Translations under genes and position numbers: made by a program
The notes under the pieces: model-generated
Seen by the model: only the letters and a program-made list of their open reading frames with translations
Database searches by the model: none
What the model was told of the DNA's origin: nothing
In this document: positions 3 to 46,819 of the stretch, piece by piece
Layout of the letters: every line of letters starts with the position of its first letter
How positions within the stretch are numbered: position 1 is the first letter of the stretch
NCBI RefSeq assembly: GCF_029919115.1
Contig: NZ_CP123990.1
Coordinates: forward strand, 372,001-436,000
DNA from: Variovorax paradoxus
GTDB taxonomy: Bacteria > Pseudomonadota > Gammaproteobacteria > Burkholderiales > Burkholderiaceae_C
DNA: 64,000 nt
Reading direction: 5' to 3'

Positions 3-962
3 CACAGCAAGTGGCCCGGCTTCGGCGCCGCATGGGCCGCGTGGGTGGCCGATGTCGAGGTGAACCGCAAGACCGGCGAAGTGCATGTGCGCCGCGTGGT
101 GGTGGGCCACGACGCGGGGCTGATGATCAACCCCGCGGGCGTCGAGCACCAGGTGCATGGCAACGTGATCCAGACCACGAGCCGCGCATTGAAGGAAGAG
201 GTGCAGTTCGCACCGCCGCAGCAAGGCGAAGGCTCTAACGGTGGCGCGCAGCTGCCGGGTGTGTTGCCCACCGGCGTGGTCGCCAGCCGCGAGTGGGGGA
301 GCTACCCGATCATCAGCTTCCGCGAAGTGCCGGTGATCGAGGTCATGCACATGCCGCGGCCCGGCGAGCCTTCGCTGGGTGCGGGCGAATCGTCTTCGGT
401 GCCGGGGACTGCGGCCATTGCGAATGCGATTTTCGACGCGACGGGAGTGAGGTTCCGTGAGCCGCCGTTCACGCCGGAGAAGGTGCTGGCCGAACTGAAC
501 CGGGTTTTGCTCCCTCCCCTTCCGGGGGAGGGCGGGGGTGGGGGCGAGCGGCGCTCGAAGGGTGACGCTGCCGTGCCCCCATCCCAACCTTCCCCCGGAA
601 GGGGAAGGGGCAATGCACCTTGGCCTCGGCGCAAGGGCCTCTTCGCCACCGGCGCCGTCCCCCGGAAGGGGAAGGGGCAATGCACCTTGGCCTCGGCGCA
701 AGGGCCTCTTCGCCACCGGCGCCGCCCTCTTCATCGGCGGCATCGGCCTCGTCGCCGGCCTGCTCGGCTGGCGCTCCGCCATCGCCCCCGTTTCGCTCAG
801 CGCCCCGGTCTACAGCGAAGCCACCATCGAACGCGGCCGCGTGCTCGCCGCGCTCGGCGATTGCGCCGTGTGCCACACCGAACCGGGCGGCGTGCCCAAT
901 GCGGGTGGCCGTGCGATGGAAACGCCCTTCGGCACGCTCTACACCACCAACCTCACGCCTGA
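3..962 (+). CDS. NicB-like molybdopterin-binding subunit, C-terminal part (5' truncated, frame lost after duplication)
   Basis: The open frame enters from the left edge, so only the C-terminal end of a xanthine dehydrogenase/isoquinoline oxidoreductase large subunit is present. True homology runs to about base 507. It includes the typical GAGE motif, whose Glu (codon at 387) is the catalytic glutamate in this family, followed by AIANAIFDATG. After base 507 the frame crosses a palindromic repeat and then a 67-bp duplication, and reads out of frame to a stop at 960-962. If one duplicate copy is removed the frame runs directly into the cytochrome c domain at 725-1998. That architecture matches nicotinate dehydrogenase NicB: a molybdenum domain fused to a tri-heme tail. 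The substrate is unknown. The family call is firm; the substrate assignment is not. Confidence 0.8.
   Translation, partial: HSKWPGFGAAWAAWVADVEVNRKTGEVHVRRVVVGHDAGLMINPAGVEHQVHGNVIQTTSRALKEEVQFAPPQQGEGSNGGAQLPGVLPTGVVASREWGSYPIISFREVPVIEVMHMPRPGEPSLGAGESSSVPGTAAIANAIFDATGVRFREPPFTPEKVLAELNRVLLPPLPGEGGGGGERRSKGDAAVPPSQPSPGRGRGNAPWPRRKGLFATGAVPRKGKGQCTLASAQGPLRHRRRPLHRRHRPRRRPARLALRHRPRFAQRPGLQRSHHRTRPRARRARRLRRVPHRTGRRAQCGWPCDGNALRHALHHQPHA
509..611. repeat. REP-like palindromic element inside the nicB-like linker
   Basis: The left arm (about 509-546, rich in CCCTCCCC and GGGGGAGGGCGGG) is an imperfect reverse complement of the right arm (about 575-611). A loop of about 28 bases lies between them. 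Similar GC-rich REP-type palindromes are common between genes in Comamonadaceae (from memory, not searched). Here the element lies between two protein domains and is read through as a Pro/Gly/Arg-rich linker. Confidence 0.7.
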
Positions 963-1998
963 CGCCGACACCGGCCTGGGCCGTTGGTCATTCAGCGCCT
1001 TCCAGCGCGCGATGCGCGAAGGCGTCTCTCGCGACGGCCATCACCTGTACCCGGCCTTTCCGTACACGGCATTCGCCAAGACGAGCGATGACGACCTGCA
1101 AGCGCTTTATGCGTACTTCATGTCCATGCCCGCGGTGCGCGCCGAAACGCCGAAGGCCGAGCTGAAGTTTCCATTCAGCATGCGGCCGTTGATGGCCGGC
1201 TGGAACGCGCTCTTTCATGACCCGGCACCGCTGCAGCCGGTGGCCACGCAAAGCGCGGAGTGGAACCGCGGCGCCTACCTGGTCAACGGCCTGGGCCACT
1301 GCGGCGCGTGCCATACGCCGCGCAATGCGCTCGGCGCGGAACAAGGCGGCAGCGCGTTCCTTTCGGGCGCAATGATCGACGGCTGGGAAGCGCCCCCGCT
1401 CACCGGCCTTTCAAGATCGGCCGTGCCTTGGGACGCCGACGAGCTCTACCGCTACCTGCGCCAGGGCCACACGCAGCGCCACGGCATTGCAGGCGGCCCC
1501 ATGGCCGAGGTGGTGCGCGAACTGGCGCAGGTGCCCGACGCCGACGTGCGCGCCATGGCCACGTACCTCGCTTCTTTCAACCCGGCGCCCGTGGCACAGC
1601 CGCAAGCCGCGGCGCAGCAGGTTGTCGACACCGCCGCGCGCAGCCAAGGCCGATTGCTCGGCCCCGCGCAGCGCATGTTCGACAGCGCCTGCGCGTCATG
1701 CCACCACGACGGCGACGGCCCCACGCTGCTCGGCGTGAACACGCCGCTTGCGCTGAACAGCAACCTCACGAGCGCACGGCCCGACAACCTGCTGCGCACC
1801 ATTCTCGACGGCGTGCGCGAACCCGCGAGCCGCGACATCGGCTTCATGCCGGCGTTCCGCGAAGCGCTCGACGACCGGCAGATAGCCGAACTCGCCGGCT
1901 ACATGCGCGCACGCTTCGCGCCGCAGGAGCCGGCGTGGACCGACCTGCAGGCGCAGGTGGCACGCGCGCGGGCCGCGTCGGGGCAAACAGGCCGGTGA
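538..1998 (+). CDS. Three-heme c-type cytochrome domain of the NicB-like dehydrogenase
   Basis: This frame carries three heme c attachment motifs: CAVCH (bases 862-876), CGACH (1300-1314) and CASCH (1690-1704). A hydrophobic segment near bases 715-770 precedes them and probably serves as a membrane anchor or transfer signal. Cytochromes of this kind pass electrons from a periplasm-facing or membrane-bound molybdenum hydroxylase to the respiratory chain. The ORF start at 538 lies inside a repeat and is unlikely to be real. The first domain residues begin near 725. Without the 67-bp duplication this segment is in frame with the upstream molybdopterin domain, so it is best read as the C-terminal half of one fused protein. 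As written it could only be made as a separate polypeptide. Confidence 0.8.
   Translation: MGASGARRVTLPCPHPNLPPEGEGAMHLGLGARASSPPAPSPGRGRGNAPWPRRKGLFATGAALFIGGIGLVAGLLGWRSAIAPVSLSAPVYSEATIERGRVLAALGDCAVCHTEPGGVPNAGGRAMETPFGTLYTTNLTPDADTGLGRWSFSAFQRAMREGVSRDGHHLYPAFPYTAFAKTSDDDLQALYAYFMSMPAVRAETPKAELKFPFSMRPLMAGWNALFHDPAPLQPVATQSAEWNRGAYLVNGLGHCGACHTPRNALGAEQGGSAFLSGAMIDGWEAPPLTGLSRSAVPWDADELYRYLRQGHTQRHGIAGGPMAEVVRELAQVPDADVRAMATYLASFNPAPVAQPQAAAQQVVDTAARSQGRLLGPAQRMFDSACASCHHDGDGPTLLGVNTPLALNSNLTSARPDNLLRTILDGVREPASRDIGFMPAFREALDDRQIAELAGYMRARFAPQEPAWTDLQAQVARARAASGQTGR
591..724. repeat. Exact 67-bp tandem duplication (copy 1)
   Basis: Bases 591-657 and 658-724 are identical. The flanking bases differ on both sides, so the period is exactly 67. 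The length is not a multiple of three, and the frame changes across the junction. It is one of four 67-bp duplications in the window. Confidence 0.95.
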
Positions 1999-2028
1999 CG
2001 CGCCGCCAGAACGCGCGTCAAGCCATCC

Positions 2029-2847
2029 TCAGCGTGCCGATGCCGCTTCGGCAATCACCTTTATCACCGCATCGGGATGCGACGTCATCACCACATGCGA
2101 CGCGCCCTTGACCACGACGGTCTTCACTGACTTGGCACGCTCGGCCATGAAAGCCATCGCTGCGGGCGGAATGTTCTTGTCAGCACTGCCATAGACGGAC
2201 CACGAAGGCACCGACTTCCATGCCGGTGCTTCGGAGGGCTCGTTCAATGCCGCCTCGGCAACGGGACGTTGCCCCACGGCCATCAGGCGGGCCTTGCCGA
2301 CTGGCACGTCGGCCGCGAACTGTGCGGGAAACTTGTCCTGCTGGATGTACAGGTCCTTGCCCCCGTCGGCCAACGGCACCGCGGGCGCGAGCGTCGGGCC
2401 GAGCGTGCTGCCCGGAAACTTTCCGGTCAGGCTGAGCGCCGTCTCGCCCGCATCGGGCGCGAACGCCGCCACAAAGACCAGCGCCTTCACATTGCTCTTC
2501 CCGCTGGCGGCCGCCGAGATGACCGAGCCGCCATACGAATGGCCGACCAGAACGACGGGTCCCTTGATCGAATCGACGACGCTGGCAACTGCTGCGGCAT
2601 CGAACTTGGGCCCGCGCAGCGGGTTTGCAGCGGCAACCACCGGATAGTGCTGCGCCTGCAGGCCGCGCACCACGCCGTCCCAGCTGGACGAATCGGCGAA
2701 GGCCCCATGCACCAGCACCACCGTGGGCTTTGCCCGCTGCTGCGAATTCGCAGCCGGCTGCGCAACGGACTGAAGTGGCACGAGTGCGGCCAGGCCTGCG
2801 GCACCGGCAACCAGGGCCATGCCAATGCGGCGGGAGAACTTTGTCAT
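2029..2847 (-). CDS. Secreted alpha/beta hydrolase
   Basis: A 272-residue protein with an N-terminal signal peptide (hydrophobic segment about residues 8-27, likely cleavage after AQP near residue 31). The alpha/beta hydrolase core shows HGAF (47-50, oxyanion side), the nucleophile elbow GHSYGG with Ser104, a probable acid at Asp223 and His251 in GASH. The pattern resembles the small secreted esterases often annotated alpha/beta hydrolase or salicylate-esterase-like. The substrate cannot be deduced. It is divergent from the next hydrolase gene, and the 345-bp gap between them holds a palindrome at 2882-2899. Export to the periplasm is inferred from the signal peptide. Confidence 0.85.
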   Translation of the reverse strand: MTKFSRRIGMALVAGAAGLAALVPLQSVAQPAANSQQRAKPTVVLVHGAFADSSSWDGVVRGLQAQHYPVVAAANPLRGPKFDAAAVASVVDSIKGPVVLVGHSYGGSVISAAASGKSNVKALVFVAAFAPDAGETALSLTGKFPGSTLGPTLAPAVPLADGGKDLYIQQDKFPAQFAADVPVGKARLMAVGQRPVAEAALNEPSEAPAWKSVPSWSVYGSADKNIPPAAMAFMAERAKSVKTVVVKGASHVVMTSHPDAVIKVIAEAASAR

Positions 2848-2881
2848 GACGATTTTTTCCTTGTTCGACGTTGAATGAAAG

Positions 2882-2899
2882 GCCGGCTGGACAGCCGGC
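2882..2899. promoter_or_regulatory. Perfect 8-bp inverted repeat between divergent hydrolase genes
   Basis: GCCGGCTG and CAGCCGGC are exact reverse complements separated by two bases. The palindrome sits 35 bp upstream of the minus-strand hydrolase start, in a 345-bp intergenic region (2848-3192) with no other gene. It could be an operator or a short hairpin in the leader. No convincing -10/-35 pair was assigned. Confidence 0.4.
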
Positions 2900-3192
2900 T
2901 ACGTCGAGTCTAGGAGCGCATGCAGCCCGGCAGGCGTTCTCTGTATGCCTGTGTGTCTACGGAGGGGTTTGCGACATTACCTTTCGAACGAGTGGCGCCT
3001 CACTCCTCTCCCGGTTGCCGCGATTTGAAATTTATTGTTGGCAAGACCGGCGCAGATACAGAGGCATACGAAAGCCGCCCGCCTCGCGCGCGCTGCGCCG
3101 AACAATCGCTTCCATCAGTTGGGAGATGCGCATCGATCCGGCTGACAAACCTCTTCCAGATTGCCATCACCTACCACCTAAAGGAATTCCAG

Positions 3193-4215
3193 ATGACCGC
3201 TTCGCTCCAGTTGCCCCGCCGCTCCTTTCTTGCCAAGGCCGCATTCGGCATGGCCGCCGTGCAGCTGACTTCGATGGTGCCCGCTTTCGCTCAATCCGCC
3301 GGCGCAGGCAGCGCCAGGCGGCTCGAGCCGCTCAAGAGCATCGAAGCCGGCAGCCTCGACATCGGCTACTACGAAGCGGGCCCGGCCAACGGCGCCCCCG
3401 TCATCCTGCTGCACGGCTGGCCGTACGACATCCACATGTTCGTGGACGTTGCACCGCAGCTTGCCGCCGCGGGCTTCCGCGTGATCGTGCCGTATCTGCG
3501 CGGCTATGGCACCACGCGCTTTCTCTCGGCGGACACACCGCGCAATGGACAACAGTCGGTGGTCGCCGTCGACATCATCGCGTTGATGGATGCATTGAAG
3601 ATCAAGACCGCCACCGTGGCCGGTTGCGACTGGGGCGCGCGCACGGCGTGCATCATGGCGGCGCTGTGGCCGGAGCGCGTGAAGGCGCTGGTGTCGGTGA
3701 GCGGCTATCTCATCGGCAGCCAGGCGGCCGGCAAGAACCCCCTGCCGCCCGAGGCCGAGCTGCAATGGTGGTACCAGTACTACTTTGCAACCGAGCGCGG
3801 CCGCGCCGGCTACGAGAAGAACCGCCATGATTTCGCCAAGCTCATCTGGCAGCTCGCATCGCCCAAGTGGAACTTCGATGCGGCCACGTTCGAGCGCAGC
3901 GCCGTGGCATTCGACAACCCCGACCACGTGGCCATCACCGTCCACAACTACCGCTGGCGCCTTGGCCTGGCCGATGGCGAAGCGAAGTACCAGGCCCTGG
4001 AGGACCGGCTGGCCAAGGCGCCGGCGATCGGCGTGCCGACCATCACGCTCGAAGGCGATGCCAACGGCGCGCCGCATCCGCAACCGAGCGCCTATGCGAG
4101 CAAGTTCTCCGGCCGCTACGAGCACCGGCTGGTCAGCGGCGGCATTGGCCACAACCTGCCGCAGGAAGCGCCCGAAGCCTTTGCCAAGGCCGTCATCGAC
4201 GTGGCGCGCGGATAA
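3193..4215 (+). CDS. Alpha/beta hydrolase with Asp nucleophile (epoxide hydrolase/dehalogenase type), exported
   Basis: The ATG at 3193 is preceded by AAAGGAA at good spacing. The longer open frame upstream is intergenic. The 340-residue product starts with a twin-arginine-like signal (RRSFLAKAAFGMA, residues 9-21; cleavage likely after AFA-QS). The core has HGWP (74-77) and the elbow GCDWGA with Asp146 in place of serine. An Asp nucleophile is typical of epoxide hydrolases and haloalkane dehalogenases. The C-terminal GIGHN supplies the catalytic histidine. An aldehyde dehydrogenase follows after 11 bp, so the two are probably co-transcribed and may act in sequence. The exact substrate is unknown. 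Confidence 0.85.
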   Translation: MTASLQLPRRSFLAKAAFGMAAVQLTSMVPAFAQSAGAGSARRLEPLKSIEAGSLDIGYYEAGPANGAPVILLHGWPYDIHMFVDVAPQLAAAGFRVIVPYLRGYGTTRFLSADTPRNGQQSVVAVDIIALMDALKIKTATVAGCDWGARTACIMAALWPERVKALVSVSGYLIGSQAAGKNPLPPEAELQWWYQYYFATERGRAGYEKNRHDFAKLIWQLASPKWNFDAATFERSAVAFDNPDHVAITVHNYRWRLGLADGEAKYQALEDRLAKAPAIGVPTITLEGDANGAPHPQPSAYASKFSGRYEHRLVSGGIGHNLPQEAPEAFAKAVIDVARG

Positions 4216-4226
4216 GGGCCAGCGCG

Positions 4227-5648
4227 ATGTGGAGCATCGACCACGCATACATCGACGGCGCGTTCGTGCCCGTGCAGGGCAGCGAGCGCCTGGAGATCGC
4301 CAACCCTGCAACCGAGCAGGTGATCGGCACGGTGACGCTGGCCAACCGTGAAGACGCGAAGCGCGCAATTGCTGCGGCCACCCGCGCTCAGCCGGCGCTC
4401 GCGGCCAGCACCAAGGCGCAGCGCATCGAAATGCTCAGGCAGCTCGAAGCCGCCGTGCTGGCGCGCACGGATCGGATCCGCGATGCCACCATCGAGGAGT
4501 ACGGCGGCCCTCAGGCCCGTTCTCAGTGGGTGAGCAACTACGCTTCGCAGTGCTTTGCCACCACGGCACAGGCGCTGCGCGGCTATGACTTCGAGCGCCG
4601 TTTGGGCGGGGCCACCGTGGTGATGGAGCCGGTCGGCGTTGCCGGCCTCATCGCGCCCTGGAACGCCGCGGCCGGAAGCATTTGCAGCAAGTTGGCCTCG
4701 GCCATTGCCGCGGGCTGCGCCTCGGTCATCAAGCCCAGCGAGCTGGGGCCGTTGCAGGCGCAGGTTGTCACCGAGGCCCTGCACGACGCTGGCCTGCCGG
4801 CCGGCGTCTTCAACACGCTGCTCGGGCGCGGCAACGACGTGGGCGATGAAATCTCCACCAGCCCGGACATCGCGAAAATCTCGTTCACCGGTTCCACGCA
4901 GACCGGAAAACTCATTGCGCGCGCGGGGGTAGACACCATGAAGCGCGTGAGCCTCGCGCTTTCTGGCAAGTCGGCCACCGTGGTGCTCGACGACGCCGAC
5001 CTGCCGGCAGCGGTGCCCATGGCGCTGAATGCCGCCTTCATGAACAACGGGCAGGCTTGCGTGGCCGGCACCCGTCTGCTGGTTCCGCACGTGCACATGG
5101 CCGAGGCTATCGAACACTTGCAGGCAGCCGTGGCCGCCATGCGCGTGGGCGACCCGCGCGACCCTGCCACTGCCATCGGGCCGCTCGCGAGCAAGGCGCA
5201 GTTCGAGCGTGTGCAGCATTTCATCCGACGTGGACTGGTGCAGGGCGCAACACTGTTGGCCGGCGGCGAAGGCCGTCCGAATGGTTTTGAAAAAGGCTGG
5301 TTCGTGCGGCCCACCGTGTTTGCCGATGTTCGCAACGACATGGACATTGCGCGCGAGGAAATCTTCGGCCCGGTGCTTTCGGTGATCGGCTATGGCGACG
5401 AGGACGAAGCCATCGCCATCGCGAACGATTCCGCCTATGGCTTGCAGGCCTATGTCTTCTCGTCGCAGGCGGAGCGCGCTCTGCGCGTGGCTTCGCAATT
5501 GCGCGCCGGCACGGTGCTGGTCAACCGCATCGCGCCCGAGTTGAGTGCTCCGTTCGGCGGCGTCAAGCAGTCGGGCATCGGCAGGGAGTTCGGCGTCTTT
5601 GGAATGGAAGCCTTCCTGGAGCCCAGGACCATTGCTGCAGCGATCTGA
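4227..5648 (+). CDS. Aldehyde dehydrogenase family protein lacking the usual general-base Glu
   Basis: A 473-residue member of the NAD(P)-dependent aldehyde dehydrogenase superfamily. It shows the oxyanion Asn146 in APWN, Lys169 in the cofactor site (IKPSE), the nucleotide loop FTGSTQTG and the catalytic cysteine Cys278 in NNGQAC. The motif that normally reads LELGGK reads LALSGK here (Ala244, Ser246), so the conserved Glu that activates water is missing. It may use another base, work as an acylating enzyme, or have lost hydrolytic activity. It starts 11 bp after the epoxide-hydrolase-like gene, suggesting one transcript. The family call is strong and the chemistry uncertain. Confidence 0.88.
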   Translation: MWSIDHAYIDGAFVPVQGSERLEIANPATEQVIGTVTLANREDAKRAIAAATRAQPALAASTKAQRIEMLRQLEAAVLARTDRIRDATIEEYGGPQARSQWVSNYASQCFATTAQALRGYDFERRLGGATVVMEPVGVAGLIAPWNAAAGSICSKLASAIAAGCASVIKPSELGPLQAQVVTEALHDAGLPAGVFNTLLGRGNDVGDEISTSPDIAKISFTGSTQTGKLIARAGVDTMKRVSLALSGKSATVVLDDADLPAAVPMALNAAFMNNGQACVAGTRLLVPHVHMAEAIEHLQAAVAAMRVGDPRDPATAIGPLASKAQFERVQHFIRRGLVQGATLLAGGEGRPNGFEKGWFVRPTVFADVRNDMDIAREEIFGPVLSVIGYGDEDEAIAIANDSAYGLQAYVFSSQAERALRVASQLRAGTVLVNRIAPELSAPFGGVKQSGIGREFGVFGMEAFLEPRTIAAAI

Positions 5649-5661
5649 AGCACGGGGGCTT

Positions 5662-5717
5662 GTTACAAATGTCACGACCAGAAAGGACAAAACGGCGATT
5701 GACGCGGATTTTGTAAC
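5662..5717. promoter_or_regulatory. Inverted repeat GTTACAAA/TTTGTAAC upstream of the cupin-like gene
   Basis: GTTACAAA (5662-5669) and TTTGTAAC (5710-5717) are exact reverse complements, about four helical turns apart, in the 112-bp gap before the gene at 5761. The arrangement suits two half-sites for a regulator or a looped leader. This is a sequence observation only. Confidence 0.35.
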
Positions 5718-5760
5718 GCCTAGTCTCTGCTTGCAGACCCCATAACAACCGGAGACAACC

Positions 5761-6723
5761 ATGATTCCCAAGCTGCGCAATCCTCGCGTTGGCCAGCATG
5801 CTGCGTCCGGCCTTATCCGGCACGATGAAGAGGGGGCTTGGGAACAACTCAACGAGCAGCCTTTCGCGTTTCGGCACGGCCTTGCCGACCATCCCCTCTT
5901 GTCGATAGAGCGCCTGGCGCGCCTTTCAGAGCGCGCATTCGACGGCGACCACTACAAGCGCTACTTCAAGGCCTGCGACTTGAAGTTGCCGCGCGACACG
6001 CTCAAGGCCCGGTTCCGCGAAGACATCGAGCAGATCCGCGAGAACGGCAAGTGGATGGCGCTGCATTACATCGACGAGATGGACCCCGAGTACGGCGACC
6101 TTTTCGATCTGCTGCTGGCCGACGTCGAGGAAATCACCCGCCGGCCTGTGCGCAGCCAGATGACATGGGGCAGCCTCTCGGTGTTTCTCAGCGCGCCCTG
6201 CCTGGCGGTGCCCTATCACTTCGACCACGAGACCAACTTTCTCATGCAGGTGCAGGGCGAGAAGGACTTGTGGCTCTATCCGCGCGAGTTCGGCGCGCTG
6301 ACGGCCGCCGAGATCGAAGACTTCTACCGGCACAACCCCGTGGCAGGCATCTACCGCGACGAGCTCGCGGACGCCTGCAGCGTCTGGAGACTCAAGCCCG
6401 GCATCGGTGTTCATCATCCGCCTCTTGCACCGCACCGCATCCTGAACGACAAGAACGTGTCGGTGAGCCTGGCTCTCTACTACGCAATGCCCGAGATGGA
6501 AGAGCGCGGGCACGTCTACCAGGTGAACTACTGCATGCGCAAGCTGGGCCTGCATCCGCGCGCACCGGGTGAATCGGCGCTTTCGGATGGCATGAAGATC
6601 AAGTTCATGCGCGCACTCTCGACCTCGAACCCACGCACGCACGACGAGCTGCTTTATTCGGGCGTCTCGCGACTTGCGGCGCCGTTCCGATGGGCCAAGC
6701 AGCTGCGGCAGGGCCGCGCGTAG
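5761..6723 (+). CDS. Cupin/JmjC-like Fe(II)-dependent oxygenase family protein
   Basis: A 320-residue protein with a JmjC-type cupin core. His153 and Asp155 in YHFDHE, plus His225 in APHRIL, give an HxD...H metal triad typical of Fe(II)/2-oxoglutarate enzymes. There is no DNA-binding domain, signal peptide or membrane helix. Proteins of this type are often annotated as cupin-like or transcriptional regulator without evidence. Protein or small-molecule hydroxylation is the most likely activity, by family. The start ATG at 5761 is preceded by CCGGAGAC. It stands alone, with its own upstream gap containing an inverted repeat, and the next gene is on the opposite strand. Confidence 0.75.
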   Translation: MIPKLRNPRVGQHAASGLIRHDEEGAWEQLNEQPFAFRHGLADHPLLSIERLARLSERAFDGDHYKRYFKACDLKLPRDTLKARFREDIEQIRENGKWMALHYIDEMDPEYGDLFDLLLADVEEITRRPVRSQMTWGSLSVFLSAPCLAVPYHFDHETNFLMQVQGEKDLWLYPREFGALTAAEIEDFYRHNPVAGIYRDELADACSVWRLKPGIGVHHPPLAPHRILNDKNVSVSLALYYAMPEMEERGHVYQVNYCMRKLGLHPRAPGESALSDGMKIKFMRALSTSNPRTHDELLYSGVSRLAAPFRWAKQLRQGRA

Positions 6724-6732
6724 CGGCATCGC

Positions 6733-7338: not shown

Positions 7339-7449
7339 CGTCGGCTCTCTGTAGTATTGGTTGGCCGGCGCTTGGCGCGCCGCATTTTTGCATCAAAGCT
7401 CGGCGCTACGATCACCCATCTACCGACAAACCCAAGAGAGACAATTCCC

Positions 7450-8637: not shown

Positions 8638-8656
8638 ACGTTCTTTCTACGCTTTA

Positions 8657-8675
8657 AAAGGAGTTGTACTCCTTT
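8657..8675. promoter_or_regulatory. Perfect palindrome upstream of the T6SS operon
   Basis: AAAGGAGT-TGT-ACTCCTTT: two exact 8-base arms with a 3-base spacer, 76-94 bp before the tssA start. It lacks a T-run, so it looks more like an operator than a terminator for the upstream FAH gene. A second weaker hairpin (AGCAA-TGTG-TTGCT, 8696-8709) follows. Together they fill the 113-bp gap before tssA. Confidence 0.45.
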
Positions 8676-8750
8676 GTCATTCATAGGCAGCACGTAGCAA
8701 TGTGTTGCTGTTGACCGCGCTTCGCGTTCCCCTCAAGATAACCATTGTTG

Positions 8751-9854: not shown

Positions 9855-9905
9855 GGCAACCGAGTCAGCTCCGACCCAAACGCATAGAGATTCAAGAGGA
9901 AGCTT

Positions 9906-10475: not shown

Positions 10476-10502
10476 GCAGCGCAAGCCGACAGGACGTCCA
10501 TC

Positions 10503-12011: not shown

Positions 12012-12058
12012 TTCAACGGTGTCCCGCAATCGGGCATATATAACTTTGGGGGTTAATC

Positions 12059-12541: not shown

Positions 12542-12556
12542 TTTCCCTTCTTGCCT

Positions 12557-12606: not shown

Positions 12607-12665
12607 ACCCGCAGCAGATATTCAACGGCGGCCAACGGCCGCGTGCGAGTCAATGAGGAAGTTTC

Positions 12666-17107: not shown

Positions 17108-17111
<4 letters not shown>
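15960..17111 (+). CDS. tssG: T6SS baseplate subunit TssG
   Basis: A 383-residue TssG/ImpH protein. Characteristic segments are FEHDLFMLLRRLDAQGGHP, PRISIYGFGLFGPNGPLPLHLTEYA and LGRNHQLGGGATIG-like residues in the C-terminal half. The N-terminal 40 residues are Ala/Pro-rich and poorly conserved. The start overlaps the tssF stop, and its stop overlaps the clpV ATG at 17108, so tssE-F-G-clpV form a chain of overlapping genes. Confidence 0.95.
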
Positions 17112-19919
<2,808 letters not shown>

Positions 19920-33044: not shown

Positions 33045-33052
33045 GGGACCCT

Positions 33053-34441
33053 ATGAACGGTGTCAACGACATGGCTGTCGGTCCGGGAGGCTTTGTGCCT
33101 CCGAATCCGGGCGGCGGCAACAACGGCAATGGCGGCAACCCGGGCAGTGGCGATGCGTCGGGTATGCCCTCCGCATCGCGCGGCCTCGGCCAGCAGCCCC
33201 AGTCATTCACCGCATGGCACGACGCGCGGCGTCCGCATGCGGGCGACACGGCGCTCGCGGGCAACAACCCGCTCGTCGCGGCGGCCAACCCGCTGCTCGA
33301 CCTGATTCCGCAGATTCGCGCCACAGGCCACCACGATGCGCCCGCGCAATTGCGCGAGCACCTGGTCGACGAGGTCAGGCGCTTCGAAACGCGCGCGCAG
33401 CAAAGCGGCATTGCACCCGAGGTGATCATCGGTGCGCGCTACTGCCTGTGCACTGCCGTCGACGAGGCCGCAGCGCTCACGCCGTGGGGCGGCAGCATCT
33501 GGTCGTCGCAAAGCCTGCTCGTGATGTTCCACAACGAGACCTGGGGCGGCGAGAAGTTCTTCCAACTGCTGTCGCGCCTGGTGCAGAACCCGCAGCAGCA
33601 TCTGCAGCTCATCGAACTCATCTACTTCTGCCTGGCCATGGGCTTCGAAGGGCGCTTCCGCGTCATCGACAACGGCCGCACGCAGCTTGAAACGCTCAAG
33701 CAGCGGCTGCTGCAGATCATTCGGCAGACGCGCGGAGAAATTGCCGTGCCGCTGTCTCCGCACTGGCAGGACGCGACGGCGCCGGTGCGCCGCACGCGCA
33801 ACTGGCTGCCGCTGTGGGCCGTGGGCGCCGTGGCGGCAGTGCTGCTGGTGCTGGTGTTCGGTGTGCTCACATTCAGCCTGGCCGGCCGCTCCGACGGTGC
33901 CTTTGCGGCGGTCAACGCGGTGCGCCTGCCGCAAACCGCGCGTGCCGTCGCCTTGCCGGCCGCGCAGCCGCGCCTGCAGCGTTTTCTCGAACCCGAGATT
34001 CGCGACGGCCTGCTGACCGTGCGCGACGAGGCCGACCGCAGCGTGGTGGTGCTGCGCGGCGACGGCCTGTTCGCATCGGGCTCCGACCGCGTGCTCGACC
34101 GCTATGCGCCGGTGCTTGCGCGCGTGGCCGATGCGCTCAATTCGGTCGAAGGCAACGTGCTTGTCAGCGGCTTCAGCGACGACCAGCCGATTCGAAGCGT
34201 GCGCTTCCCATCCAACTGGCAGCTCTCGCAGGCGCGCGCCGATGCCGTCAAGAAAATGATTGCCACGCGCGTCACGCGGCCCGAGCGCCTGCGCGCCGAG
34301 GGCCGCGGCGATGCCGACCCGCTGGTGCCCAACGATTCGGCCGCCAACCGTGCGCGCAACCGGCGTGTGGAAGTGACGCTGCTCGTGGCGCCCGTGGCCG
34401 CGGCCAACACCACCACAGCGCCGCAGGGAGGAGCCCGCTGA
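33053..34441 (+). CDS. tssL: T6SS inner-membrane protein TssL with C-terminal OmpA domain
   Basis: A 462-residue extended TssL (DotU/ImpK). After a Gly/Asn/Pro-rich N-terminus, the cytoplasmic DotU helical domain spans about 75-235 (ARYCLCTAVDEAAALTPWG, the family core). A single membrane helix (about 252-275) follows. The periplasmic OmpA-like peptidoglycan-binding domain occupies about 320-455, with NWQLSQARADAV and the NRARNRRVEV ending. The fused OmpA domain provides cell-wall anchoring that some systems place on a separate protein. The stop overlaps the tssM ATG (TGATG). Confidence 0.95.
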   Translation: MNGVNDMAVGPGGFVPPNPGGGNNGNGGNPGSGDASGMPSASRGLGQQPQSFTAWHDARRPHAGDTALAGNNPLVAAANPLLDLIPQIRATGHHDAPAQLREHLVDEVRRFETRAQQSGIAPEVIIGARYCLCTAVDEAAALTPWGGSIWSSQSLLVMFHNETWGGEKFFQLLSRLVQNPQQHLQLIELIYFCLAMGFEGRFRVIDNGRTQLETLKQRLLQIIRQTRGEIAVPLSPHWQDATAPVRRTRNWLPLWAVGAVAAVLLVLVFGVLTFSLAGRSDGAFAAVNAVRLPQTARAVALPAAQPRLQRFLEPEIRDGLLTVRDEADRSVVVLRGDGLFASGSDRVLDRYAPVLARVADALNSVEGNVLVSGFSDDQPIRSVRFPSNWQLSQARADAVKKMIATRVTRPERLRAEGRGDADPLVPNDSAANRARNRRVEVTLLVAPVAAANTTTAPQGGAR

Positions 34442-37400
34442 TGCTGCGCGCGATTTTCCGTTTTCTCGTGAGCCGCGACCTGTGGGTCTTTTTCGGTCTG
34501 CTGGCTGTCGCGTTCCTGATCTGGGTCATCGGCCCCGTCATTGCGGTGGGCCGCTACCGGCCGTTCGAAAGCGAGTTCGTCCGCATCGTGGTCATCGCGC
34601 TGATGTTCACGATCTGGATTGCGCGGGTGCTCTACCGCAAGTGGCGCGAGCGGCGGCTCAACGCGCAACTGCTCAACCAACTGCGCACCCCCACCGCGAA
34701 GGAAAAGGCTGCCAAGCCCGAAGACGCGCCCGAGATCAAGGAGCTGCAAAGCGGCTTCACCGATGCCACGGCCATACTGAAGAACATGCGCTTCGGCTCG
34801 GGTGCCGAAGGCAAGGCCGCGGGCCGCTTCGCGGTGTTCGACCGGCAGTACCTGTACCAGCTGCCCTGGTACATCTTCATCGGCGCGCCGGGTTCGGGCA
34901 AGACCACCGCGCTGGTCAACTCCGACCTCGACTTTCCGCTGGCCGACCAGCTCGGCAAGGCCGCGGTGCGCGGCATTGGCGGCACGCGCAACTGCGACTG
35001 GTGGTTCACCAACGAGGCGGTGCTGATCGACACCGCGGGGCGCTACACCACGCACGAGAGCAACCGCGAAACCGACGAGAGCGAGTGGAAGGGCTTTCTC
35101 GACCTGCTGAAGAAGTTCCGCCCGCGCCAGCCGATCAACGGCGCAATCCTCACCATCAGCATTGCCGACCTGCCGCTGGCCGACGACGCACAGCGCGCGC
35201 GCCACGCCATGGCGCTGCGCAAGCGGCTGCTCGAGCTGCGCAACGACCTGGGCATCAACTTTCCGGTGTACGTGCTGGTTACCAAGACCGACTTGCTGGC
35301 TGGCTTCAACGAGTACTTCGGCTCGCTGGGCCGGGCCGAGCGTTCGCAGGTCTGGGGCTTTACCTTTCCCATCGACGCCAACCCGGCCGACCCCGCCAAG
35401 GCGGACCTGCGCGAGCGCTTCCACCAGGAATACAAGCTGCTGCACCAGCGCCTGGACGAGCGCCTGCCCGAACTGCTGGCCGCCGAGCCCGACCAGATGC
35501 GCCGCGCGCAGGCCTACCTGCTGCCGCAGCAGTTCGCGAGCTTCGAGGACATCCTGGGCACCTTCCTGGCCGACGTGTTCAACCCCTCCAAGTTCGAAGT
35601 GGCGCCGATGCTGCGCGGCGTTTACTTCACCAGCGGCACGCAGGAGGGCACCGCCTTCGACCGTGTGATGGGCGCCATCAAGCGCTACCTGCAAGTCAAC
35701 GCGCCGCCGGCGCCGCCGCCGGGCCCGGGCAAGAGCTACTTCCTGAAGGAACTGCTGCAGCAAGTGATCTTCCGCGATGCGGGCGTGGCCGGCACCAACC
35801 TGCGCTGGTACCGGCGCAAGCGGGCCATCGACCTGGCCGGCTACAGCCTCATCGGCGTGCTGCTGGTGGTGCTGCTGGGCGCCTGCGTCAACAGCTGGCG
35901 CAACAACAGCGACTACGTGGCCGAAGTGGACAACAACGCCAAGGCCTTCAACAAGGCGGCTGCGCGCGGCGAGCTGCCGACGGTGGTCGATTCGAACAGC
36001 GACATCGCCAGCTCGCTGCTGGTGCTCGACCGCCTGCGCGACCTGCCCAAGTCGAGCCACTTCGACATCGGCGATCCGCCTGTGAGCTACCGCTTCGGCC
36101 TCTACCAGGGCGAGAAGCTGCAGGCGGCCACTGACGGCGTCTACCAGCGAGCGCTCGAAAGCGTGCTGTTGCCGCAGGCGGCCCAGCGCGTGGAGCAGGC
36201 GCTGCGCGAAGCCTCGAAGACCGATGCCGAAGCTGTTGCCGCAGGCGGCCCAGCGCGTGGAGCAGGCGCTGCGCGAAGCCTCGAAGACCGATGCCGAATA
36301 CAGCTACGAGGCGCTCAAGGCCTACCTCATGCTGTACGACGCCGAGCGCTACGACGCCGACTTTCTGCAGGCTTGGCTGCTCACCGACGTGGACCGCAAG
36401 ATAGGCGCAGCCCTTACGCGCGAGCAGCGCGCCAACCTCGAGACGCACCTGCAGGCGCTGTTTGCGGGCCGCGTGGTGACATCGCCCTTTGCCAAGGACG
36501 ACCGGCTGGTGGTGCAGACGCGCGACCGCCTGGCCGGCGTGCCGCTGGCGCAGCGCTCCTATGCGCGGCTGCGCCGCATCCTGCTGCAGACCAGCCCGCC
36601 CAACGCCTTCAGCATTGCCGAGGCGGGCGGTGCCGAATCGGCGCTGGTCATCAAGCGCGCAAGCGGCAAGCCGCTGACCGACGGCATTCCCACGCTGTTC
36701 ACCTACCGCGGCTACTGGGACATCTTCGACAAGCGCATGGCCGAGACCACGCTCGCGCTCGAGCAGGAAGACCGCTGGGTGCTGCAGATCCGCGCACCGG
36801 GCATGACGGACATCACCTCGCGCGAGCTGCTGCTGCGCGAGGTGCGCCGGCTGTATCTCACCGACTACATCCGCGTCTGGGACGAGTACCTGGCCGACAT
36901 TCGCCTGGCCGACAGCCGCTCGCTGCTGCAGAGCATCCAGATGACGCGCGTGCTTTCGACTTCGGAATCGCCGATGTCCCGGCTCATTCGCGGCGCCGCG
37001 CGCGAGACCGACCTGCTGCGCAACCACGACGAGGCGGCGCGCAGCCTGCTCGACCAGGCGCAGAACCGCGTGGCCAGCACGCGCGAGCGCATCGAGCAGC
37101 TCATCGGCCAGCCCGACGGCAGCCAGCGCCGCAACACCGCGCCGGACCGGCCCGAGTCGCTGGTGGACAACCACTTCGCGCCGCTTCGCCGCATGGTGAC
37201 CGCGCCCAAGGCCGGCGGGCAGGCGCCCATCGACGCCACTGCGGCGCTCATCAACGAGCTCTACACCTTTCTTACCGCCACCGACACGGCATTGCGCAGC
37301 GGCAACATTCCGCCGTCGGGCGATGCCGTCACCAAGGTGCAGGCCGAGGCGGGCCGCCTGCCGGTGCCGTTCCAGGGCATGCTGAACGATCTCTCGGCCA

Positions 37401-38143
37401 CCGCGTCGTCCAAGGCCGCGGCCGTGACGCGGCAGAACATCGGGCAGAGCGCGGCGGCCACCATCGGCCAGTTCTGCAACCAGGCCATTGCGGGGCGCTA
37501 TCCGTTTTCGCGCGGCTCCAACCGCGATGTGGCGGCCGGCGACTTTGCTCAGCTGTTCTCGCCGGGCGGCATGATGGACGACTTCTTCCAGAAGAACCTC
37601 GCCTCGCAGGTCGATACGTCCGTCAACCCATGGGCGTTCAAGAAGGGCGTGGACGGCAGCTCACCGGGGCGCTCGTCGTACCTCGACTCGTTCCAGAAGG
37701 CGCAGGCGATCCGCGATGTCTTCTTTACCGGCATGGCCGGCGGACGCACGCCGTCGTTCACCATCGACATCCGGCCCGAGGACATGGACGCCGCGCTCAC
37801 CCAGTTCACGCTCGACATCGACGGGCAGACGGTGCGCTATGCGCATGGTCCGCAGGCGCCCAGCACTGTGAAGTGGCCCGGCCCGCGCAACAGCAACCAG
37901 GTGCGGCTGCAGGTGACCACCGCCAACGGCACGCCGGCCGGCGGCATCGTGACCGAAGGGCCTTGGGCGCTGCACCGGCTTTTCGACAAGGCCTCCGTCT
38001 CGGCCGGCAGGTCGCCCGAGTCGTTCAACGCAACGTTCGACATGCAGGGAAAGAAGGTGGTGCTGGTCGTGACCGCGAACAGCGTCTACAACCCGCTTCG
38101 GCTGAGTCAGATGAACGGCTTCTCATGCCCGGGAAAGTCTTGA
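34441..38143 (+). pseudogene. tssM: T6SS inner-membrane protein TssM (IcmF), frame broken by a 67-bp tandem duplication
   Basis: TssM spans the inner membrane and contacts TssJ. The N-terminal part has two membrane helices (within residues 10-65), Walker A GAPGSGKTT near residue 150 and Walker B VLIDTAGRY, so the NTPase motif is intact. A third helix lies near residue 468. The true frame runs from 34441 to about 36231. The rest is in another frame, from 36224 to the stop at 38143, because bases 36165-36231 are repeated. Collapsing the repeat restores a 1,211-residue protein of normal length. Artefact is more likely than mutation. As written, the original frame would read nonsense to 38148. 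Confidence 0.92.
36165..36298. repeat. 67-bp tandem duplication inside tssM (copy 3)
   Basis: Bases 36165-36231 and 36232-36298 are identical, with no extension on either side. The unit is unrelated in sequence to the other duplications. It shifts the tssM frame by one. Confidence 0.96.
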
Positions 38144-38144
38144 C

Positions 38145-38861
38145 ATGAACAGCGGCTTTCCTTCGGCGCGCGCGTGGGTGCCGGCCGACGAGCAGATCGG
38201 CTGGTACGGCAAGCTGCCCGCCGCCGGCGACTTTCTTTACCGGCGCATGCCGCGCGAACTGCAGGCCTGGTGGGACCGATGGATGCAGAACGGCCTCGGT
38301 TCCTTCAAGCGCTGGCCCGATGCCATGACGCGGCACTACGTTGTCGCGCCTGTCTGGAACTTTGCGATTCCGGCAACGCAGGGCGTGGACGCGGTGCAGT
38401 TCGGCTGCATTGCGCCAAGCTGCGACCGCGTGGGGCGCTATTACCCGGCTTGCGTCACGCTGCAGGTGGCTGCATCGAGCTACCGGCCTTCCATGCTCGA
38501 AGGCTCGGCCGCGTGGTACTGGCAATGCGGCACCGCGTTGCTGCAGGCCATTCGCCACAGCGTGGCGCCGGACCAGTTCGACCAGCAGGTGCTGGCCGCG
38601 GCGCACGGCGGTTTCCACACCGCAAGCGGCGGCTCGGACGACATCCTTTCGATCCTCGGGCCCGCCGCCTCGGACGCAGGCGCGCAGCAGCGCCTGGGCT
38701 GGCCCGAGCTTCCGCTGTGCTTCGATGCATTCGGAAGCACCAGCTACTGGTGGACCAACCAGGCGGACGGCTCGCCGCTGCGCACCGCCGCGCACGGTGG
38801 AGGCCTCAACACGCCATTGTTTTCGAAGTTGTTTTCACAGGGGCATGTGCCATGGGCATGA
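38145..38861 (+). CDS. tagF: T6SS regulator TagF
   Basis: A 238-residue TagF/ImpM protein beginning with the typical IGWYGKLPAAGDFL, the hallmark of the family, and followed by LQAWWDRWMQNGL. In Pseudomonas aeruginosa TagF blocks T6SS assembly post-translationally by acting on Fha; both Fha (TagH) and PpkA are encoded here. The ATG at 38145 begins right after the tssM stop. The kinase gene follows after 31 bp. Confidence 0.92.
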   Translation: MNSGFPSARAWVPADEQIGWYGKLPAAGDFLYRRMPRELQAWWDRWMQNGLGSFKRWPDAMTRHYVVAPVWNFAIPATQGVDAVQFGCIAPSCDRVGRYYPACVTLQVAASSYRPSMLEGSAAWYWQCGTALLQAIRHSVAPDQFDQQVLAAAHGGFHTASGGSDDILSILGPAASDAGAQQRLGWPELPLCFDAFGSTSYWWTNQADGSPLRTAAHGGGLNTPLFSKLFSQGHVPWA

Positions 38862-38892
38862 CTGAACAGACCCCCGCCGCGGGAGGACATGC

Positions 38893-40974: not shown

Positions 40975-42199
40975 CAGGCGCGCCTGGCACGCGGCGCCAG
41001 CGCTGTGCGCCGACCAGCGCCAGCACCGCGACGACGCTGGCCGCCAGCAGCACCCAGAGGCCCGGCGTGTAGCCGGTGCCCGGCTGCCACAGCACGCCTA
41101 GCATCAGCGGCGCCAGGGCACGGGCGATGGCGCTCGGCAGCCCCAGTGCACCGTTGAGCGTGGCCACGTGATCGCGGTTCACGTATTGCGCAATCGCGGT
41201 GCCCTTCACGATGGTGAGCATGCCGTTGCCCATGCCGTAGAAAAACACGAACAGCAGCGCGGCGCCCGGGTGGCCCGCACCCGCGAGCAATGCAAGCAGG
41301 CCGAGCGGAATCAGGCAGGGAATCAGCCGGTTCGCCAGATGCAGGTCGAAGTGGTGCTCGAAGAAATACAGCAACGCCCGCCCCAGCACCTGCACCAGCC
41401 CGATGCTCGCGGGCACGGCAATGGCCCACGATTCGCTGAGCCCCGCACCGCGCAACAGGCTCACCATGTGCGGCGGCAACGCGGCCGTGACCGCCATCAG
41501 CAACACTGTGAAAACGCCCACCAGCAGGAACGGGGCGGTGCGCATGTAGTGGCCTGCGGGCGCTACGGCCGCCGCTTCGCCTGCGTTGGGCCGCCCGGCT
41601 TTCGAACCCGCCGCGGGAGCGGGTGCATGCCGCAGCACCCGCGCATGCAGCGGCGCGCAAATGAAAAGATGAATGGCCGCGAGCACCCACAATGCGTGCC
41701 GCCAGCCGAGCTCCGCAATAAGCCAGGCTACGAGCGGAATGAATACCGTGCTCGCCAGCCCGCCGAGAAACGTCAGCGTGATGATCGCGCGTCGAAAGTC
41801 GTTGGGGAAGCGCCGCGTGACGATGGAGAACGCAGGGCTGTAGAGCGTGGCCGCCAACCCCGCGCCGAGCAGCGCCCAGGCCGCGTAGAAGCCCAGAGCG
41901 CTGTGCACCATGCTCTGGAGCAGCAGGCCGGCCACGATGACCAGCGAGCCGCCGGTCATTACCGCCCGCTCATGGCCGCGATCGATCCAGCGCCCCACCG
42001 GCCACGCCAGTGCACCTTCGGCCAGCAGCGCAAGGCTGAACGCCAGTGACGACTGCGCCCGGCTCAGCCCCAGCTCGCGTTCGACCGGCTCCATCAGCAG
42101 CGCGAAGCCGTAGAAGACGCTGCCCCAGGTGATGAGCTGGCCGAGCGAGAGCCAGCCGACCATGCGGCGGTTGTAGAGCGTTGGGGCGGGTGTGTTCAC
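40967..42199 (-). CDS. MFS transporter
   Basis: About 410 residues from GTG 42199 (ATG 42163 is an alternative; neither has a strong ribosome site). It has 12 predicted membrane helices, and the first reads LGQLITWGSVFYGFALLM. The motif GRWIDRGHERAV lies in the loop after helix 2, typical of the major facilitator superfamily. Substrate unknown. Its 3' end overlaps the ppkA stop region, and its start is 11 bp from the comM stop, so it could be read through from comM. Confidence 0.85.
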   Translation of the reverse strand: MNTPAPTLYNRRMVGWLSLGQLITWGSVFYGFALLMEPVERELGLSRAQSSLAFSLALLAEGALAWPVGRWIDRGHERAVMTGGSLVIVAGLLLQSMVHSALGFYAAWALLGAGLAATLYSPAFSIVTRRFPNDFRRAIITLTFLGGLASTVFIPLVAWLIAELGWRHALWVLAAIHLFICAPLHARVLRHAPAPAAGSKAGRPNAGEAAAVAPAGHYMRTAPFLLVGVFTVLLMAVTAALPPHMVSLLRGAGLSESWAIAVPASIGLVQVLGRALLYFFEHHFDLHLANRLIPCLIPLGLLALLAGAGHPGAALLFVFFYGMGNGMLTIVKGTAIAQYVNRDHVATLNGALGLPSAIARALAPLMLGVLWQPGTGYTPGLWVLLAASVVAVLALVGAQRWRRVPGAPAT

Positions 42200-42209
42200 T
42201 GCTGGAGAG

Positions 42210-43748
42210 TCAGTTTCGCAACCCCCGACGGTACTGCACAGCCTCCGCCACATGCACGGCCTGCACCGATTCGGCGCCGGCCAGATCAGCCACCGTGCGC
42301 GCCACCTTGAGCGCGCGGTGCGTGCTGCGCGCCGACCAGCCGAGCTTGGCTGCGGCGTTGACCATGAACTTGCGCGCGGCGTCGTCCAGTGCGGCGTGCC
42401 GGTCGATGGCGCCGGCTTGCAGTGCCTGGTTCGGGCTACCCTGGCGCTGCACCGCAAAGTTGCGCGCGGCAACCACGCGGGCGCGGATGCTGCCGGTCGC
42501 CTCGCCGGCCGGCGCACCGAGCAGTTGGTGCGCCGATACCGCGGGCACTTCGATGTGCAGGTCGATGCGGTCGAGCAGCGGGCCGCTGAGCTTGCTTTGG
42601 TAGCGCGAAACCTGGTCGGGCGTGCAGCGGCAGGCCTTCAGTGCCGAGCCCTGGTAGCCGCAAGGACAGGGGTTCATGGCAGCGATGAGCTGGAAGCGCG
42701 CGGGAAACTCGGCGCGCCGGGCGGCCCGCGCAATGGTGATGGTGCCGGTTTCGAGCGGCTCGCGCAGCGCCTCGAGGGCGGACCTTGCGAACTCCGGGAA
42801 TTCATCGAGAAAGAGAACCCCGTGGTGCGCCTGTGAGATTTCGCCGGGGCGTGGAGGGGAGCCGCCGCCCACAAGCGCCACCGCACTGGAGGTGTGGTGC
42901 GGCGCAGAAGTCGGCCGGCTCATCCAGCGCTCGGTCGAGAAGCTGCCGCCCAGGCTGGCCACGGCCGCGGTCTCCAGCGCCTCGTCGATGCTCATCGGCG
43001 GCAGCAGCCCGGCAAAGCGCTGCGCCAGCATCGACTTGCCCGAGCCGGGCTCGCCGACCATCAGGAGGCTATGCCCGCCGGCGGCGGCAATTTCCAATGC
43101 GCGCTTGGCGCTTGCATGTCCCTTCACGTCGGCCAGGTCGGCATATCGGGGGGTAGCGCCCGCCTCGGCGGCCTGGATGCGTGCCCAGCCGTCCGCGCTG
43201 GGCGGCTCGGCCGGCTGCGCCGCGCCGCCTTCAGGCATGAAGCGCTGCACCACATCGAGCAGGTGCCTGGCCCCGTACACCTCGCCGCCGGGCACCAGGG
43301 CCGCTTCTTTTGCGCTTTCGGTAGGCAGCACCAGCCGTGTCGCGATGCCGCGGGTGTGCAGCGCAAGCGCCATGGCCAGCGCGCCGCGCACGGGCCGCAG
43401 CTCGCCTGAAAGGGAAAGTTCGCCCGCAAATTCGTGCCCGGCCAGGCTTGCAGCCTGGATCTGCCCGCTGGCCGCGAGGATGCCAAGCGCAATGGGCAGG
43501 TCGAAGCGGCCGGAGTCCTTGGGCAGGTCGGCTGGCGCCAGGTTGACGGTGATCCGCTTGTTATTTGGAAACTCGAGGCCGGCATTCTGTATGGCCGAAC
43601 GCACGCGTTCGCGCGCCTCCTTGACCTCGGTTTCTGCCAGCCCGACCAGCGTAAAGCTGGGCAGGCCGTTGGCCAGATGCACCTCGACCGTGACACTGGC
43701 CGCTTCCAGCCCAAGCAAAGCGCGGCTTTGCACCAAAGACAAGCTCAT
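42210..43748 (-). CDS. comM: YifB/ComM family Mg-chelatase-like AAA+ protein
   Basis: A 512-residue protein starting MSLSLVQSRALLGLEA at ATG 43748; the longer frame is intergenic. The N-terminal Lon-like domain (about 1-165) is followed by an Mg-chelatase AAA+ module with GEPGSGKSM (Walker A) and FLDEFPEF (Walker B), then a C-terminal region with a zinc-like cluster NPCPCGY. ComM is a helicase that promotes branch migration in natural transformation. The family call is strong. Confidence 0.93.
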   Translation of the reverse strand: MSLSLVQSRALLGLEAASVTVEVHLANGLPSFTLVGLAETEVKEARERVRSAIQNAGLEFPNNKRITVNLAPADLPKDSGRFDLPIALGILAASGQIQAASLAGHEFAGELSLSGELRPVRGALAMALALHTRGIATRLVLPTESAKEAALVPGGEVYGARHLLDVVQRFMPEGGAAQPAEPPSADGWARIQAAEAGATPRYADLADVKGHASAKRALEIAAAGGHSLLMVGEPGSGKSMLAQRFAGLLPPMSIDEALETAAVASLGGSFSTERWMSRPTSAPHHTSSAVALVGGGSPPRPGEISQAHHGVLFLDEFPEFARSALEALREPLETGTITIARAARRAEFPARFQLIAAMNPCPCGYQGSALKACRCTPDQVSRYQSKLSGPLLDRIDLHIEVPAVSAHQLLGAPAGEATGSIRARVVAARNFAVQRQGSPNQALQAGAIDRHAALDDAARKFMVNAAAKLGWSARSTHRALKVARTVADLAGAESVQAVHVAEAVQYRRGLRN

Positions 43749-43901
43749 TTTTATTACTCTCCCCATTGTGGTGCGCCCGTTTTTGGTCGGACTTGTGCAC
43801 CGCGGGCCCCCGGAAGGGCACCGCAACTGAACACTCTTGTAACTTTTCACGCGGACTGCGGAGGCCGGGGCTGCAGCCATGCAGCAGGCGGAACGAGCAC
43901 T

Positions 43902-43918
43902 TTGGCACGCTCCCTGCT
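43902..43918 (+). promoter_or_regulatory. Sigma-54 (-24/-12) promoter for torF-glnK-amtB
   Basis: TTGGCACGCTCCCTGCT matches the RpoN consensus TGGCACG-N4-TTGCW, with GG (43904-43905) and GC (43916-43917) separated by exactly 10 bases. Transcription should start near 43929, 37 bp before the porin ATG. Upstream candidate NtrC half-sites are TGGTGCG (43769-43775) and GTGCAC (43795-43800). This fits nitrogen-limitation control of glnK-amtB. Confidence 0.75.
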
Positions 43919-43965
43919 ATGAGACGGTGTCCCCCCAACGATCCAACCAACTCCGAGGAGTCTCG

Positions 43966-45202
<1,237 letters not shown>

Positions 45203-45223
45203 TCAGCCCGGAAAAAAACAACC

Positions 45224-46819
45224 ATGAAAAAACTGCTTGTTTCTCTTGCGCTCGGCTTGAGCGTGCTCGCTGCCGGCACCGCCTCGTTCGCACAGGCGCC
45301 GGCGGCTGAAGCGCCGGCTGCCACGGCACCGGCTGCAACCGCCCCGGCTCCCGCTGCAGCCCCCGCGGCCGCGGCACCTGCCGCCGCCCCCGCTGCTGCT
45401 GCCGAAGCAGCGCCCGCCGCGGCTCCCGCTCCTTCGTTCAACAAGGGTGACACCAGCTGGATGATGCTGTCCACGCTGCTCGTCATCATGATGACCATTC
45501 CCGGCCTGGCGCTGTTCTACGGCGGCCTGGTGCGCAGCAAGAACATGCTGTCGGTGCTGATGCAGGTGATGGTCACCTTCTCGCTGATCGTCGTGCTGTG
45601 GCTCATCTATGGCTACAGCCTGGCCTTCACCGAAGGCAATGCCTTCATCGGCGGCTTCGACCGGCTCTTCATGAAGGGCGTGTTCGATCCGGCCACCGGC
45701 GTGTTCGCGCCCGGCGCCACCTTCAGCAAGGGTGTGTACATCCCCGAGCTGCTGTTTGCCGCCTTCCAGGCCACGTTCGCCGGCATTACCTGCTGCCTGA
45801 TCGTGGGTGCCTTTGCAGAGCGCGCCAAGTTCTCGGCCGTGCTGCTGTTCATGGTGATCTGGTTCACCTTCAGCTATGCGCCGCTGGCCCACATGGTCTG
45901 GTTCTGGCTTGGCCCTGACGCCTACACCGCCGCCAACGTGGTGGATGCCAACAACGCCAAGGCCGGCCTGATCTGGCAATGGGGCGCGCTCGACTTCGCG
46001 GGCGGCACCGTGGTGCACATCAATGCAGCCGTTGCAGGCCTGGTCGGCGCCTACGTCATCGGCAAGCGCGTCGGATACGGCAAGGAAGCCTTCACGCCTC
46101 ACTCGCTCACGCTCACCATGGTCGGCGCCTCGCTGCTGTGGGTCGGCTGGTTCGGTTTCAACGCAGGTTCGGCCCTCGAAGCCGGCACCAGCGCCGTGCT
46201 CGCCTTCATGAACACCTTTACCGCCACCGCCGCAGCAGTGCTTGCATGGTGCATCGGTGAAGCGCTGATGCGCGGCAAGGCCTCGATGCTGGGTGCCGCT
46301 TCGGGCGCCGTTGCAGGCCTCGTGGCCATCACCCCGGCCGCCGGCAACGTCGGCCTGATGGGCGCCATCATTATCGGCTTCATCGCCGGCTTCGCCTGCC
46401 TCTGGGGCGTCAACGGCCTCAAGAAGCTGCTCGGCGCTGACGACTCGCTCGACGTGTTCGGCGTGCACGGTGTCGGCGGTATCGTCGGCGCGCTGCTCAC
46501 CGGCGTGTTCAACACCCAGGCACTCGGCGGCCCCGGCCTCGTGGGCGACTGGGTCACGGCCAGCGTGGTGTCCAACGGCATCGGCGCACAGGTCTGGATC
46601 CAGCTCAAGGGCGTGCTGCTGACCATCGTGTGGTCTGGCGTGGTGGCGTTCATCGCCTTCAAGATTGCCGATCTCACCATCGGCCTGCGTGTGTCGGAAG
46701 AAGAAGAGCGCGAAGTTCATCGCCTTCAAGATTGCCGATCTCACCATCGGCCTGCGTGTGTCGGAAGAAGAAGAGCGCGAAGGCCTCGACATCTCCTCGC
46801 ACGGCGAGACCGCATATAA
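45224..46819 (+). CDS. amtB: Ammonium transporter AmtB, C-terminal tail shifted by a 67-bp duplication
   Basis: The protein has a signal peptide (LGLSVLAAGTASFAQA), an unusual 45-residue Ala/Pro low-complexity stretch, then the Amt core beginning MMLSTLLVIMMTIPGLALFYGG, with the twin-His residues in VHINAAVAG and VHGVGGIVG. The core is complete. Bases 46648-46714 are repeated at 46715-46781. The frame therefore changes near the end and stops at 46819 after an altered tail; without the repeat the protein would end normally with GLDISSHGETAYN at a TAA at 46824-46826. The C-terminal tail is important for GlnK control, so the difference would matter if real. Confidence 0.93.
   Translation: MKKLLVSLALGLSVLAAGTASFAQAPAAEAPAATAPAATAPAPAAAPAAAAPAAAPAAAAEAAPAAAPAPSFNKGDTSWMMLSTLLVIMMTIPGLALFYGGLVRSKNMLSVLMQVMVTFSLIVVLWLIYGYSLAFTEGNAFIGGFDRLFMKGVFDPATGVFAPGATFSKGVYIPELLFAAFQATFAGITCCLIVGAFAERAKFSAVLLFMVIWFTFSYAPLAHMVWFWLGPDAYTAANVVDANNAKAGLIWQWGALDFAGGTVVHINAAVAGLVGAYVIGKRVGYGKEAFTPHSLTLTMVGASLLWVGWFGFNAGSALEAGTSAVLAFMNTFTATAAAVLAWCIGEALMRGKASMLGAASGAVAGLVAITPAAGNVGLMGAIIIGFIAGFACLWGVNGLKKLLGADDSLDVFGVHGVGGIVGALLTGVFNTQALGGPGLVGDWVTASVVSNGIGAQVWIQLKGVLLTIVWSGVVAFIAFKIADLTIGLRVSEEEEREVHRLQDCRSHHRPACVGRRRARRPRHLLARRDRI
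46648..46781. repeat. 67-bp tandem duplication in the amtB 3' end (copy 4)
   Basis: Bases 46648-46714 repeat exactly at 46715-46781, with one extra matching base. The unit has no sequence similarity to the other three duplications, only the same length. It moves the frame and alters the last residues of AmtB. Confidence 0.96.

Follow-up and report, generated by a model that had tools for sequence, protein, structure and literature searches.

Exact 67-bp tandem pairs in a single-contig Variovorax paradoxus genome are almost certainly untrimmed assembly overlaps

We analysed a 64,000-bp stretch (the window, bases 372001-436000) of the one-contig, 5,810,675-bp genome of the soil bacterium Variovorax paradoxus. 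The genome is rated as 100% complete with 0.6% contamination, and its closest named relatives are Variovorax (64 loci found with part of tssM). The window contains four exact tandem pairs with a 67-bp unit. The first (591-724; copies 591-657 and 658-724) lies in the linker that connects a frame for a molybdopterin-binding oxidase with one for cytochrome c; the others are located at 18897-19036 (copies 18897-18963 and 18964-19030), 36165-36298 (36165-36231 and 36232-36298) and 46648-46782 (46648-46714 and 46715-46781). The period-67 match runs starting at 591, 18897, 36165 and 46648 are 67, 73, 67 and 68 bases long, the match at the second site continuing for 6 bases beyond the unit. A direct scan and Tandem Repeats Finder, which recovered all four pairs at 100%, agree on the starts given by the first-pass annotation, and a scan of periods 10-599 lists no further exact tandem pair in the window. 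The four units had been described as unrelated to one another, and they have no 11-mer in common on either strand.

Three of the pairs break a forward-strand gene. The tssH/clpV-type AAA+ ATPase gene (17108-19919) is split into two frames at the 18897 pair, with Pfam domain AAA_lid_9 in one part and AAA_2 and ClpB_D2-small in the other; residues 1-524 of the protein of a relative (L145) match frame 2 and residues 501-817 match frame 3. The tssM/icmF gene (34318-38148) is likewise split at the 36165 pair, with IcmF-related_N in one part and IcmF-related and IcmF_C in the other, and residues 1-637 and 616-1251 of a second relative (L029) match frames 1 and 2. In the amtB ammonium transporter gene (45224-46826, Pfam Ammonium_transp), translation of both frames shows that the shift past the 46648 pair is confined to the last 14 codons. 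These three genes are falsely frameshifted in a genome presented as complete. The 591 pair is flanked by Pfam MoCoBD_2 on one side and cytochrome c on the other, and a single open frame is kept across this stretch in 10 of 11 relatives' loci, the exception being relative G004 (locus L133). The earlier claim that all four pairs change a reading frame thus holds for tssH/clpV, tssM/icmF and amtB, whose parts lie in different frames, and is likely for site 591, as judged from the reading frames. A dispersed, C/G-rich REP-like element of about 110 bp is located at 501-617 inside the open oxidase/cytochrome frame; this genome and those of other Variovorax contain dozens of copies, roughly 76-89% identical, on either strand.

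We compared the distance between the flanks of a pair with that in relatives at 8 of 20 sites, four in the window and four outside. At site 18897 the flanks are 67 bp apart in every relative's locus with both flanks (39/39), and at site 36165 the distance is exactly 67 bp in 46/49 loci (63, 68 and 68 in the others). Site 46648 gives 67 bp in 10/11 loci, the flanks in the remaining one (L046) being matched far apart, and at site 591 the 11 loci give distances between 40 and 73, with 67 in four. Relatives have a single copy at the sites in the window. Outside the window the four sites give a mixed result, with 67 in 10/21 rows, values from -8 to 166 in the others, and 134 in none. By site, the distance is 67 in 4/5 rows at 1891572 (three genomes; the other row 64), in 2/6 rows at 1242958 (one row at 73, three at 165-166), in 1/5 rows at 5022133 (-8 to 28 in the others) and in 3/5 rows at 5024021 (then 64 and 163).

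The first-pass annotation had predicted many more period-67 repeats across the genome, and these were found. We searched about 2.13 Mb in stretches, including an evenly spread set of 80 (1.6 Mb), for pairs with an exact run that spans no fewer than 60 bases or no less than 95% of the period, a criterion that diverged pairs escape. This identified 20 exact period-67 pairs, with runs of 67-73 bases and identical copies in all 20, at genome coordinates 372591, 390897, 408165, 418648, 469336, 542748, 663236, 1242958, 1579856, 1891572, 2237865, 2604818, 3314109, 3461754, 3723611, 3724495, 5022133, 5024021, 5201878 and 5475009. The evenly spread sample holds 13 of these pairs, which extrapolates to about 47 genome-wide. 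Only 3 of the 190 pairings of the 20 units have an 11-mer in common, which makes the units essentially unrelated. Intervals of 10-18 kb, earlier read as a typical contig size, hold inside the window but not elsewhere, where neighbouring pairs are between 884 bp (3723611 and 3724495) and 120,488 bp (542748 and 663236) apart.

In 2.04 Mb of the genome scanned for every period, 11 exact tandem pairs have another length: 64 bp in one case and 21-41 bp in the other ten. The 64-bp pair is the only exact pair of at least 60 bp with a period other than 67; it neighbours a 41-bp pair (genome 3858416 and 3858575), and the two probably form a real tandem repeat.

Such small tandem duplications of varied length are what ordinary replication slippage or short-homology recombination would leave, and the 67-bp pairs could in principle be recent duplications that have their length in common by chance; one pair with 6 and one with 4 bases of extension agree with this explanation. 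Slippage produces varied lengths, however, and chance cannot account for 20 pairs that all have the same one. The excess of homology that slippage predicts is also absent: over all 20 pairs the match extends beyond 67 bp by a mean of 0.80 bases, where random positions give an expectation of 0.75 (P(sum ≥ 16) = 0.38), and we rejected microhomology on this basis, homology at the junction being not beyond chance. We regard slippage as next to impossible here.

A second biological explanation is a process in this Variovorax strain that makes tandem duplications of exactly 67 bp, by a fixed-length staggered cut with fill-in or by template-switching over a fixed distance. The pairs are indeed exact, of a single length and dispersed. 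Against such a process, the pairs show no microhomology, and the copies have not diverged in any of the 20. No such pair occurs in 400 kb of the relative G004, in which we found no exact tandem pair of any period from 20 to 999, where 3.25 period-67 pairs would be expected at the rate of this genome. Among 104 relatives' loci (1.43 Mb, many from one gene neighbourhood) there was likewise no clean period-67 pair; these loci contain one 66-bp pair, with N between its copies.

The length of 67 bases also appears at the edges of longer repeats. At genome 5022134-5024154 a 1,887-bp piece of an autotransporter gene, in a region whose open reading frames encode ESPR, autochaperone and autotransporter-beta domains, has a 67-bp pair on each side. 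At a diverged second site (1617012-1617145), exactly the first 67 and the last 67 bases of this piece abut and the middle is missing; on either side the very next base is already a mismatch. G004 has a stretch that matches the 1,887-bp piece at full length in two places. The abutment at 1617012-1617145 indicates that one repeat copy was omitted and that contig ends reaching 67 bases into the repeat were joined directly.

Two 67-mers also abut at 2238578|2238645, where the counterparts lie around the 3723611 and 3724495 pairs, and at 4315953|4316020 (4315953-4316086). In the latter, the left 67-mer recurs inverted at 4224320, a match to G004 starts exactly at base 4316020, and the last 67 bases of the contig (5810609-5810675) are identical to 4316020-4316086. 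The segment 4315953-4316086 is another hidden join of two contig ends. In an extension test of seven position pairs, five matches are maximal at exactly 67 bases and two extend by 1 or 3 bases.

A further structure is a pair of perfect inverted copies (3461821-3510030 and 3510154-3558363), with arms of 48,210 bp and a spacer of 123 bp that we take to be part of a pilT-like gene. The first base of its left arm is also the first base of the second copy in the 3461754 pair. Past the far end of the inverted repeat, the sequence starts with a 67-mer that recurs at the repeat centre, in a match that is maximal at exactly 67 bases. The inverted repeat is most likely a foldback misjoin in the assembly. 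The same 67-base quantum governs the abutments without the repeat, the end of the contig and the border of the false inverted repeat, and a genuine duplication process would not yield it. A biological process of exactly this length fails to explain these three kinds of site, and we consider it extremely improbable; it is just as doubtful that this strain made even some of the pairs by duplicating exactly 67 bp in tandem.

We conclude that the 67-bp pairs are almost certainly an assembly artefact, in which contigs with a 67-base overlap would have been concatenated untrimmed, and not biological. This was the simplest reading offered by the first-pass annotation, and the recurrence of the pairs across the genome, the single copies in relatives at the window sites, the abutting 67-mers, the contig end and the edge of the inverted repeat all support it. 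In the mechanism that we propose, the contigs of a de Bruijn graph would have been strung together into one pseudo-complete chromosome with the overlap left in, so that each correct adjacency of contigs A and B with overlap O would read A-O-O-B instead of A-O-B. A collapsed repeat contig would be placed once, and the other site would then read as the first 67 bases joined to the last 67, with the repeat missing. Foldback joins like that at 3510 kb would make the graph branch in unique sequence; none of this kind is visible within the window. The assembler, the joining step and the cause of branching at the mostly unique window loci are all parts of this proposal that we infer.

An overlap of 67 bases would arise with K = 67 in an assembler such as SPAdes, in which adjacent edges have K bases in common, or with k = 68 in a k-1 convention. 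The Unicycler paper states that SPAdes creates such overlaps between contigs and that their removal is required (PMC5481147). The contig-end overlaps of such assemblers resemble ours in being fixed between neighbouring contigs and equal to the k-mer length; they differ in that the overlap has been kept in the Variovorax genome, giving rise to tandem duplications, and the assembler behind this genome may be another one.

A related technical explanation is that the fixed overlap stems not from a short-read de Bruijn graph but from long-read polishing or from consensus windows that were joined at a constant overlap. That the genome forms a single contig, with no N in the scanned stretches, fits this explanation and points to a probable role of long reads or manual joining. 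Against it, the 67 bases fall exactly at the ends of repeats, where identity breaks off, as the edges of a k-mer graph do and polishing windows do not, and the pairs are irregularly spaced (884 to 120,488 bp apart). Polishing or consensus windows are thus a very unlikely source of the pairs.

Some observations count against the untrimmed-overlap explanation itself. The units in the window are mostly without long exact repeats elsewhere; window positions 18400-19600 have their longest match elsewhere in the genome with an 82% paralogue. The match extends past 67 bp by 6 bases at one site and by 4 at another; a maximum of at least 6 among 20 has a probability of 0.049. Exact repeats longer than 67 bp also occur without adjoining 67-bp pairs (111129/2971179 and others), indicating that the assembly is not a plain list in which each graph edge is used once. 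We rejected that plain model, in which every contig is used once, on account of these repeats and of the 48-kb stretch that is present twice.

We also considered a missing 16S rRNA as a sign of dropped repeats. None was found in this genome, but of 14 control genomes only 9 were positive in the same search, and the exact 16S pattern is also absent from 5 of 7 relatives. The search is uninformative, and we dropped it as evidence. Six genomes (G000, G011, G037, G043, G050 and G059) give no match to the exact standard 16S pattern despite a near-complete rating; the gene is perhaps missing or withheld in the copies searched.

The 67-bp pairs hold no new biology, and their importance is for quality control only. 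By our estimate the genome contains 47 false 67-bp insertions; it has also lost one repeat copy or more and gained a false inverted duplication of 48 kb, and comparative studies would take the broken tssH, tssM and other genes for pseudogenes. Other genomes labelled complete can be checked for the same error in a simple way, by searching them for exact tandem pairs that all have one length. Our literature search for a published account of a constant-length tandem-copy artefact yielded only general assembly papers. Among comparable cases, an account of false duplications in vertebrate assemblies (PMC9516828) likewise describes assembly errors that appear as duplications and alter gene content.

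A closer case is scaffold12 of Xenophilus sp. E41 (NZ_QPIB01000012.1; locus L090, positions 6184-6316), where two tandem copies also stand at a scaffold join; in contrast to the Variovorax pairs, these copies are 66 bp long and have N between them. Another assembly under the same strain name, E41 (QAIB01000011.1; locus L084), has one copy of the 66 bp at 100% identity. This case suggests that the untrimmed-overlap error occurs beyond the Variovorax genome.
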